From Sulfitobacter sp. THAF37 (GTDB lineage Bacteria > Pseudomonadota > Alphaproteobacteria > Rhodobacterales > Rhodobacteraceae), in assembly GCF_009363555.1 (NCBI RefSeq), contig NZ_CP045372.1, positions 248,001 to 312,000 on the forward strand: a stretch of DNA of 64,000 nt. The letters run 5' to 3'. Positions 3,225-6,200 of the stretch are shown one piece after another. A program made the translations under genes and the position numbers. Under the pieces are notes generated by a model, which saw only the letters and a list, made by a program, of their open reading frames with translations, ran no database searches and had not been told where the DNA came from. Every line of letters starts with the position of its first letter. The first letter of the stretch is position 1.

Positions 3225-6200
3225 ATGCCAAAGCGCACCGACATCAAATCAATCATGATCATTGGTGCAGGCCCCATCATCATTGGGCAGGCCTGCGAAT
3301 TCGACTACTCCGGCGCACAGGCCTGCAAGGCGCTGAAGGAGGAAGGCTACCGGGTCATCCTGGTCAATTCCAACCCCGCAACCATCATGACCGACCCGGG
3401 CATGGCCGATGCCACCTACATCGAGCCGATCACCCCCGAGATCGTGGCCAAGATCATCGAAAAGGAACGCCCCGACGCCCTGCTGCCCACCATGGGCGGT
3501 CAGACCGGCCTGAACACCTCCCTCGCGCTCGAAGAGATGGGCGTGCTTGAGAAATACGGTGTCGAGATGATCGGCGCCAAACGCGAAGCCATCGAAATGG
3601 CCGAAGACCGCAAACTGTTCCGCGAGGCGATGGACCGGCTTGGCATCGAGAACCCCCGCGCGACGATCTGCACCGCGCCGACGGATGCCAAGGGGAAAAA
3701 GGACCTTGCCGCGGGGGTGCGTCTGGCGCTGGAGGCGCTGGAGGACATCGGCCTGCCCGCCATCATCCGCCCCGCCTTCACCATGGGCGGCACCGGCGGC
3801 GGCGTGGCCTACAACCGTGAGGACTACGAATTCTACTGCCGCTCCGGCATGGATGCCTCGCCCATGGGCCAGATCCTGATCGACGAGTCGCTGCTGGGCT
3901 GGAAGGAGTTCGAGATGGAGGTGGTGCGCGACACCGCCGACAATGCCATCATCGTCTGCTCCATTGAAAATGTGGACCCGATGGGCGTGCACACCGGCGA
4001 CAGCATCACGGTCGCCCCCGCGCTGACGCTGACGGATAAGGAATACCAGATCATGCGCAACCACAGCATCGCGGTGCTGCGCGAGATCGGTGTGGAAACC
4101 GGCGGATCGAATGTCCAATGGGCCGTAAATCCCGACGACGGGCGCATGGTGGTGATCGAAATGAACCCCCGCGTCAGCCGGTCCTCGGCACTGGCGTCCA
4201 AGGCAACAGGCTTTCCCATCGCCAAGATCGCCGCCAAACTGGCGGTCGGCTTCACACTGGACGAGTTGGACAACGACATCACCGGCGTGACCCCCGCCTC
4301 CTTTGAGCCGACCATCGACTATGTCGTCACCAAGATTCCGAAGTTCGCCTTCGAGAAATTTCCCGGGTCTGAGCCGAACCTGACCACCGCCATGAAATCC
4401 GTCGGTGAGGCCATGTCGATCGGCCGCACCATCCATGAGAGCCTGCAAAAGGCACTTGCCTCAATGGAATCCGGCCTGACCGGCTTTGATGAAATCGATA
4501 TTCCGGGCGTCACCCCCCTCACCCCAACCCTCTCCCCCGAAGGGGAGAGGGAGCGGCGCTCCGATCCGGGCGTCACGATTGAAGATCCACGCTCCGCGTC
4601 GAACCGCGCGGCGGCCCTCTCCCCTCAGGGGAGAGGGTTGGGTGAGGGGAATCTGCCGCCGGAAGAGCGTGCCGCCCTCGTCAAGGCAATCAGCAAACAG
4701 ACTCCGGACCGGCTGCGAATAATAGCGCAGGCCATGCGCCATGGAATGTCCAACGACGAAATCCACGGGACCACGATGTTCGACCCCTGGTTCCTGGATC
4801 GTATCCGTGAGATCGTGGATGCCGAGCAGGACGTCCGCACAAACGGGCTGCCGCAGGACGCGAACGGATTGCGCGGCCTCAAGATGATGGGGTTCACCGA
4901 TGCCCGCCTTGCGCATCTGTCGGGGACGTCCGAGGAGGACGTCCGTGCCGTCAGGCTCCACGCCGGCGTAAAAGCCGTTTTCAAACGCATCGACACCTGT
5001 GCGGCTGAATTCGAGGCCCAGACGCCTTACATGTATTCCACATACGAGGCGCCGATGATGGGCGATGTGGAATGCGAAGCGCGCCCCACTGACCGCAAGA
5101 AAGTGGTGATCCTGGGTGGGGGTCCCAACCGTATCGGCCAGGGGATCGAGTTCGACTACTGCTGCTGTCACGCCTGCTATGCCCTGACCGATGCGGGATA
5201 TGAGACCATCATGGTCAACTGCAACCCGGAGACCGTTTCAACCGATTACGACACCTCCGACCGGCTCTATTTCGAGCCGCTGACCTTCGAGCATGTGATG
5301 GAAATCCTGCGTGTCGAACAGGAAAACGGCACTTTGCACGGTGTCATCGTGCAATTCGGCGGTCAGACACCGCTGAAGCTCGCCAATGCGCTGCAGGACG
5401 CCGGCATCCCGATCCTCGGCACCACGCCGGACATGATCGACCTGGCCGAGGACCGCGAGCGGTTTCAGCAGCTTGTGCAGAAGTTGGGCCTGAAACAGCC
5501 CAAGAATGCCATTGCCCATTCCGATGCCGAGGCGCTTGAAATCGCCGCCGACATCGGTTTCCCCCTCGTGATCCGGCCATCTTACGTGTTGGGCGGGCGG
5601 GCGATGGAGATCGTGCGCGATCAGAAAAGCCTTGAGCGTTACATCCGCGATGCGGTTGTGGTCTCCGGCAAAAGCCCGGTATTGCTGGACAATTACCTGT
5701 CCGGCGCGGTCGAGCTGGACGTGGACGCGCTGTGCGACGGCACCGATGTCCACGTGGCCGGCATCATGCAGCATATCGAGGAAGCGGGCGTGCATTCGGG
5801 CGACAGCGCCTGTTCGCTTCCGCCCTATTCGCTGGACCCTGCGATCATAGAGGAAGTCACCAAACAGACCCGGGCCCTTGCGCTGGCGCTGAACGTGGTC
5901 GGGCTGATGAACATCCAGTTCGCGGTCAAGGATGGCGAAGTCTACCTGATCGAGGTGAACCCGCGCGCCTCGCGCACCGTGCCTTTCGTGGCCAAGGCGA
6001 CGGATTCGGCCATCGCGTCGATCGCCGCGCGGATCATGGCGGGCGAGCCGTTGTCGAATTTCCCCAAACGCGCGCCCTACCCCGAACAGGCCGCCTATGC
6101 CGATGTGCTGCCGCTGGGTGATCCGCTGACCCTGGCGGATCCGGACATGCCGTGGTTCTCGGTCAAGGAGGCGGTGCTGCCTTTCGCCCGCTTCCCCGGC

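Follow-up and report, generated by a model that had tools for sequence, protein, structure and literature searches.

The carB gene of Sulfitobacter sp. THAF37 contains an in-frame, 135-bp element that reads as a PIT/TM-type REP doublet. The gene lies in the window analysed here, a stretch of 64,000 nucleotides of the 4.26-Mb genome of this strain (G000). The best overall explanation, to which we give a probability of roughly 0.7, is that a PIT/TM doublet was inserted once in carB, that it is translated, that its arms are constrained and that its partner is a DUF559 protein. Within this essential gene, the DNA ends of the repeat are under tighter constraint than the protein stretch that is encoded, so that in the carB copy selection for the repeat can be told apart from selection for the peptide. 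The DUF559 association supplies a named, small and testable protein; in E. coli K-12, the DUF559 protein YcjD adjoins one repeat. Both the conservation of the arms at the DNA level and the family-wide link to DUF559 genes go beyond what an initial annotation of this DNA had expected. The coordinates of the features are given in Table 1.

Table 1. Features of the carB gene, its repeat and the DUF559 gene. Positions are those of the window unless a contig is named; the triplex motif is putative.
Feature	Position	Strand	Description
carB, carbamoyl-phosphate synthase large subunit	3225..6707	+	ATG at 3225, stop at 6705-6707, 1160 aa
Putative REP (PIT/TM-type) doublet	4515..4649	+	135 bp, carB codons 431-475
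Left outer tail CCCCTCACCCC	4515..4525	+	third-strand tract of the triplex motif in reverse orientation, by comparison with Table 1 of PMC4666352
Left hairpin	4528..4551	+	perfect 10-bp stem, 4-nt loop; stem identical across four species
Interior between hairpins	4552..4614	+	63 nt; drifting, little constraint; no stops or length change in four species
Right hairpin	4615..4637	+	perfect 10-bp stem, 3-nt loop; stem identical across four species
Right outer tail GGGTGAGGGG	4640..4649	+	third-strand tract of the triplex motif
DUF559 (PF04480) gene, L150	G000, contig C1, around 1674269-1674798		phnI-phnJ gap, adjoins the phn doublet; 84.8 bits against a curated cut-off of 20.6

The gene is matched above cut-off by two NCBIfam models, NF003671 and TIGR01369, and a search of the genome returns a single CarB match, which makes it the only carB copy found. 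The initial annotation had described an element with inverted ends and a perfect 10-bp hairpin at each, had likened its peptide signature to that of a widespread proteobacterial intergenic repeat and had proposed that it was inserted without breaking carB. The element is found as described, and its sequence matches TM/PIT motifs. The carB frame runs through the insert without a stop in each of the four carrier species. The ends of the element read CCCCTCAC and GTGAGGGG. As inverted repeats, the outer arms (4515-4529 and 4635-4649) match at 87% and the long arms (4523-4559 and 4606-4642) at 76%. The predicted fold of the 135 nt has an energy of -101.7 kcal/mol (z = -10.3), and none of 200 shuffles is as low. 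The site is at the start of the oligomerisation domain, where the annotation had placed it: the alignment with E. coli CarB stops at residue 411 of that protein and resumes at 421, and the domain is given as 401-552 in PMC6245113. The loop may be exposed at the protein surface, as that annotation had suggested; an AlphaFold prediction of CarB from 21 near-identical sequences has a mean pLDDT of 45.9. A perfect 12-bp direct repeat, TCCGGGCGTCAC, occurs at 4502-4513, just outside the element, and at 4565-4576, inside it. The other three species do not have copies of this direct repeat in both places.

The carB element would be a doublet in which two inverted hairpins each have a GTGAGGG tail. 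The PIT/TM pattern of a pyrimidine tract, a loop, a purine tract, a short loop and a mirroring second purine tract is present (CCCTCTCCCC..GGGGAGAGGG..GGGTGAGGGG); the assignment was made by eye, from positions 4615-4649 and Table 1 of PMC4666352, and the triplex is putative. The PIT/TM motifs of E. coli (TM-ECO) have the same hairpin and the same GGGTGAGGGG third-strand tract with 2-3 nt between them, and inverted pairs occur (Holder et al. 2015, PMC4666352). Hairpin and tail are separated by TT in carB and by TTA or CCG in the E. coli motifs. PIT/TM motifs are reported from more than 260 genomes, and all 23 copies in E. coli K-12 are listed as intergenic (PMC4666352), unlike the carB copy, which is inside a coding sequence.

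In-frame REPs of other families are already known, and the carB insert adds a member to this phenomenon. Intragenic GTAG/CGTC REPs, among them RPE-4 and RPE-6 of Rickettsia, are found in known proteins, where they account for 20 to 30 aa and up to 82 aa (Di Nocera et al. 2013, PMC3733652). These families share with the carB element the in-frame reading of REP dimers or groups within protein genes. They differ from it in that the carB element ends without a GTAG or CGTC tag and in that the carB arms are held at the DNA level across four species; carB is also absent from the genes named in the section of that paper on intragenic REPs. The likeness to Rickettsia palindromic elements that had been suggested for this insert holds for the in-frame palindrome in a protein gene, here at the carB locus only. 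It does not extend to close kinship: the CGTC tag of RPE-4 and RPE-6 (PMC3733652) is missing, and the match is to TM/PIT motifs instead. The Rickettsia elements also occupy many genes per genome, whereas one of three exact-hairpin loci is coding here.

Among 98 genomes searched, G000 included, an unbroken CarB match across the insert is found in four: G000, its sister species G057, G053 and G007. Carriers of the insert include Sulfitobacter sp. EhC04 and DFL-14. In the 30 loci at which the CarB linker was read, it is 69 aa long in the four carriers, 19 aa in 15 others, 28 aa in 10 and 30 aa in one; all 26 of the other genus linkers are without the insert. Carrier proteins are therefore longer than those of their relatives by 50, 41 or 39 residues and never by exactly 45. 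The clean 45-residue gap that the annotation had predicted in relatives is not seen, and a few codons that flank the repeat in carB also came or changed.

In the 21-taxon, full-length CarB tree, from which the linker was left out, the four carriers are on one side of a 100/100 branch. In the tree from the shorter, partial-CarB alignment, which separates the placements poorly (AU p 0.23), the insert-free G037 is among the four; the full-length tree places G037 elsewhere. An exact-pattern scan of 84,980 species, each represented by a single genome, returned the left arm with its adjoining CarB motif in two records, both from this clade; the scan may omit records near the window, and G057 was not returned by it. 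A protein search with CarB region 424-484 returned the window's own protein alone (one of 263 candidates) and says little on absence, as it missed the three other carrier genomes. These alignments and trees indicate that the element entered carB once, in the ancestor of the four Sulfitobacter species, at a linker of variable length. Insertion in frame and translation of the element within carB can be stated with high confidence.

Within the insert, the arms and the interior have evolved differently. Across the four carB genes, 593 of 1115 third codon positions are variable outside the insert, 15 of 20 in the interior and 3 of 25 in the arms. In codon-matched resampling, 17.0 variable third positions are expected in the arms against the three observed, and none of 50,000 draws is as low. 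dS is 0.05-0.10 in the arms and 0.39-0.80 in the rest of carB; arm dN (0.02-0.08) is not below that of the remaining gene (0.02-0.05). Variable arm sites in carB are confined to the loops of both hairpins and to two bases that separate the left tail from its stem. All of these arm statistics come from four carrier sequences on one short tree. The conservation of the arms extends to synonymous sites and so cannot come from selection on the peptide; the constraint very probably acts on the DNA or RNA of the arms and not on the peptide. In the interior, dN/dS is 0.43-1.03 in five of the six species pairs. It is 0.13 in the pair G053-G007 (20 codons; dN 0.10, dS 0.75), so the interior is not plainly neutral in that pair.

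The exact hairpin is found in four of 62 genus genomes, which are the four carriers, at 5 to 7 copies each, and the pattern read backwards has no match. In G000 there are five exact hairpins at three loci (carB, phn and mmsA), of which carB is the sole coding locus; the phn and mmsA hairpins are between genes or at gene ends. The annotation had foreseen many intergenic copies, but besides carB the exact hairpin is present at two loci of G000. Nor are there many in-frame copies, as carB alone is coding among the three loci. Long reading frames over REPs elsewhere were judged by eye to be antisense or spurious. In the family sample of 394 Rhodobacteraceae genomes, the tail and hairpin together occur in seven, the window's own included.

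The four species share an identical hairpin stem at the mmsA 3' site, with differences in the loop. The mmsA copy has a TTA-GGGTGAGGGG form in G057, G053 and G007. In G000, the outer tail at this site is mostly lost (L106). At the 3' end of mmsA in G057, the repeat gives the stop codon of a convergent reading frame (TAA between tail and hairpin; L103). At the phn site, the stems persist and the spacer, which is intergenic and 66 nt long in all four species, has diverged. When the carB and phn spacers are compared against shuffles, a few pairs score above most shuffles, with inconsistent orientation. In the phnI-phnJ gap (L102 and L099), the G057 doublet, tails included, matches that of its sister species G000 in reverse complement. 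For the phn spacers of these two genomes, the reverse-complement match has a z of 6.2 and is reached by 0 of 1000 shuffles; the forward match is reached by 856 of 1000. The phn doublet has probably been inverted in place between G000 and G057, which suggests recombination between the arms.

Stand-alone DUF559 genes have the same distribution in the genus as the carB insert. In a profile search of 64 genomes, they are found in four of 46 Sulfitobacter genomes, exactly the four carriers; five weak partial matches in frames of at least 1077 aa (G029, G041, G047, G054 and G114) were left out. They are also found in four of six other repeat-bearing genomes of the family and in none of 12 control genomes from the family, one of which (G105) proved to have six hairpins. 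The E. coli control genome had no PF04480 match in this search, though YcjD of E. coli K-12 matches (167 bits).

In the family sample, which has nearly one genome per genus and is counted without phylogenetic correction, DUF559 is present at an E value of 1e-10 in 24 of 394 genomes. At least one match of the pattern CCCTCYCCCN{2,10}GGGRGAGGG is present in 22 of the 24 DUF559 genomes and in 44 of the 370 others, and at least five hairpin copies are present in 16 of 24 and 4 of 370, respectively (p 3e-19). DUF559 is present and the pattern absent in G129 and G490. The same pattern read backwards, as a control, has 30 matches in 22 of 394 genomes. It reaches a maximum of four in one genome, so single matches can be chance and the five-copy threshold is unaffected.

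The association is also seen at the level of individual loci. Among 29 Rhodobacteraceae loci (26 matches from the family sample and three from Sulfitobacter), 27 have a REP-type hairpin at most 130 bp from the DUF559 match, either upstream, downstream or both, and the two loci without a neighbouring hairpin both belong to G490. REP-type hairpins have a density of 5.0 per kb within 200 bp of these genes and 0.07 per kb beyond 400 bp. The class sample (Alphaproteobacteria) is made up of the best 30 loci by score, one per genome, from the 97 of 385 genomes that match DUF559. In this sample, a REP-type hairpin is found within 200 bp at 19 of 30 loci and beyond 400 bp at none, and 11 loci are without one within 200 bp. 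Hairpins of any sequence are found within 200 bp at 24 of 30 loci (4.39 per kb, versus 0.11 per kb beyond 400 bp). Gene-adjacent stretches are more often intergenic, so part of this any-sequence excess could be terminators; the intergenic bias favours any-sequence hairpins and, less so, the REP-type one. In a control of 17 insert-free carB loci, the hairpin density is 0.03 per kb, and the 98 kb examined contain no REP-type match. At two of the class loci (L188 and L206), hairpins of another sequence flank DUF559 on both sides, as if each gene had its own repeat.

The DUF559 protein of G000 reads E-V-T-G where the consensus of 39 aligned DUF559 sequences is E-x-D-G. The G000 protein keeps D51, E62, G65 and H69. 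In Sulfitobacter DUF559, T replaces the conserved acidic D; given this changed motif, the protein may be inactive. Genomes in which DUF559 keeps an E-x-D-G-type motif have more repeat copies (17 versus 7 genomes, Mann-Whitney p 0.04, in a post hoc test with the genomes sorted by eye). The nearest solved chain to the DUF559 protein of G358 is 3hrl ('Endonuclease-Like Protein', E 2e-23). A link between DUF559 and REPs was not found in print in the open-licence literature, where DUF559 papers were judged mainly by title and the start of the abstract. DUF559 is probably the partner of this repeat family; for its being the actual mobiliser of the repeats, the odds are about even. The broader proposal is evenly balanced as well: DUF559 Vsr-like nucleases would be the missing partners of proteobacterial PIT/TM (CCCTCTCCCC-type) repeats. 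The repeats and these enzymes would make up a second type of REP system that does without RAYTs: acting on hairpin or triplex DNA, a PD-(D/E)XK nuclease would copy, excise or maintain the repeats, and in Sulfitobacter such a system would have left the DNA-constrained doublet in carB.

The DUF559 gene could instead be a passenger, a beneficiary of the repeat or a house-keeping mismatch-repair nuclease, with something else moving the repeats. The DUF559 protein VsrA of Caulobacter has been proposed as a Vsr-like repair nuclease (PMC12907096), the Sulfitobacter copy has its changed motif residue, and four family genomes with at least five hairpins, one of them only 71% complete, have no DUF559 match. 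This reading keeps an appreciable chance, well short of even, against the nearly invariable adjacency to hairpins in the family, the copy number that follows the presence of DUF559 and the post hoc excess of copies in motif-keeping genomes. A known system with the same arrangement is that of RAYTs (REP-associated tyrosine transposases) and REPs, in which the gene of a DNA-processing enzyme likewise adjoins repeat copies and tracks their number; the gene here encodes DUF559 and not a tyrosine transposase. The carB element could also be a conventional REPIN whose mobilising RAYT later disappeared from G000. It shares with the REPIN or BIME the inverted REP pair, the conserved ends and the less conserved, variable spacer (Bertels and Rainey 2011, PMC3116915), and G007 has a Y1_Tnp gene above cut-off and G053 a match just below it. 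Such an origin is nevertheless improbable. The carB family has few copies (the 5 to 7 hairpins per genome) and not a high copy number, the gene that neighbours another copy is DUF559, and a genome profile search finds no member of the RAYT family PF01797 in G000 or G057. At an E value of 1e-5, PF01797 is present in one of 24 DUF559 genomes, none of four other repeat-rich genomes and three of 26 hairpin-free genomes, and the 25-kb contig of G007 that bears Y1_Tnp has no exact hairpin.

The constancy of the arms could also be the product of a mutational process, either gene conversion between copies or template switching in the palindrome, and not of selection. Long inverted repeats undergo template-switch correction, and the apparent flip of the phn doublet between G000 and G057 indicates that arms recombine. 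Template switching, however, keeps the arms complementary but lets the stem drift, and the carB stems are identical across species. The lengths of the C-runs distinguish carB-type from phn-type hairpins in every species compared; the subtypes have stayed separate at the two loci, an argument against homogenisation between them. A mutational origin of the pattern is rather unlikely. That the 135 nt are removed or skipped, by intron-like splicing or ribosome bypassing, to give a CarB of normal length is very improbable, even with an mRNA hairpin predicted to be as stable as that given above. The insert is a multiple of three with no in-frame stop and a constant length in the four species, none of which is needed if it is skipped. 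This open-frame argument is of moderate weight: the chance that 20 codons stay open in GC-rich DNA is 0.74 for one sequence, and the intergenic phn spacer is also constant in length. Simple lengthening of a variable linker in the protein, without a mobile source, would fit the different linker lengths of the hairpin-free relatives. The chance of this is close to negligible, and it is refuted by the other genomic copies, as repeats elsewhere in G000 and in other bacteria match the inserted DNA, tails included.

In the history that we favour, with a single insertion into carB, a doublet would have been copied into the linker, where the protein tolerates a change in length, and the frame would have been kept because carB is needed. 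Transcription and translation of the element would give a functional enzyme with an extra loop of about 45 residues; the open frame and the purifying selection on the remaining carB point to translation of the loop. Its middle would drift because the protein tolerates the loop. The arms, the conservation of which is itself observed, would be kept for what we infer to be their recognition or maintenance as palindromic DNA or RNA, as at the other copies. The most likely partner is a Vsr-like PD-(D/E)XK nuclease of the DUF559 family, the gene of which adjoins a doublet, and this protein would cut, copy or maintain the hairpins. The E-x-T-G motif of Sulfitobacter DUF559 would fit a family that is no longer spreading. 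Given the loss of one conserved acidic residue from this protein and the count of 5 to 7 hairpins for the family, the copy in carB is probably a relic that no longer moves and is kept in place.

In E. coli K-12, the TM motif is in the gap between ycjD and fabI, about 170 bp from the 3' end of ycjD. In a near-identity search, 3333 of 5426 E. coli genomes cover at least 80% of the fabI-ycjD stretch with its TM motif (L218), so ycjD and the repeat look polymorphic within the species. One E. coli genome without ycjD at this site has other genes there (L219) and is thus uninformative on the transfer of a ycjD-repeat unit. In G358, the first part of a PhnK-like reading frame (locus L110, minus strand) may include a REP that is read in frame.
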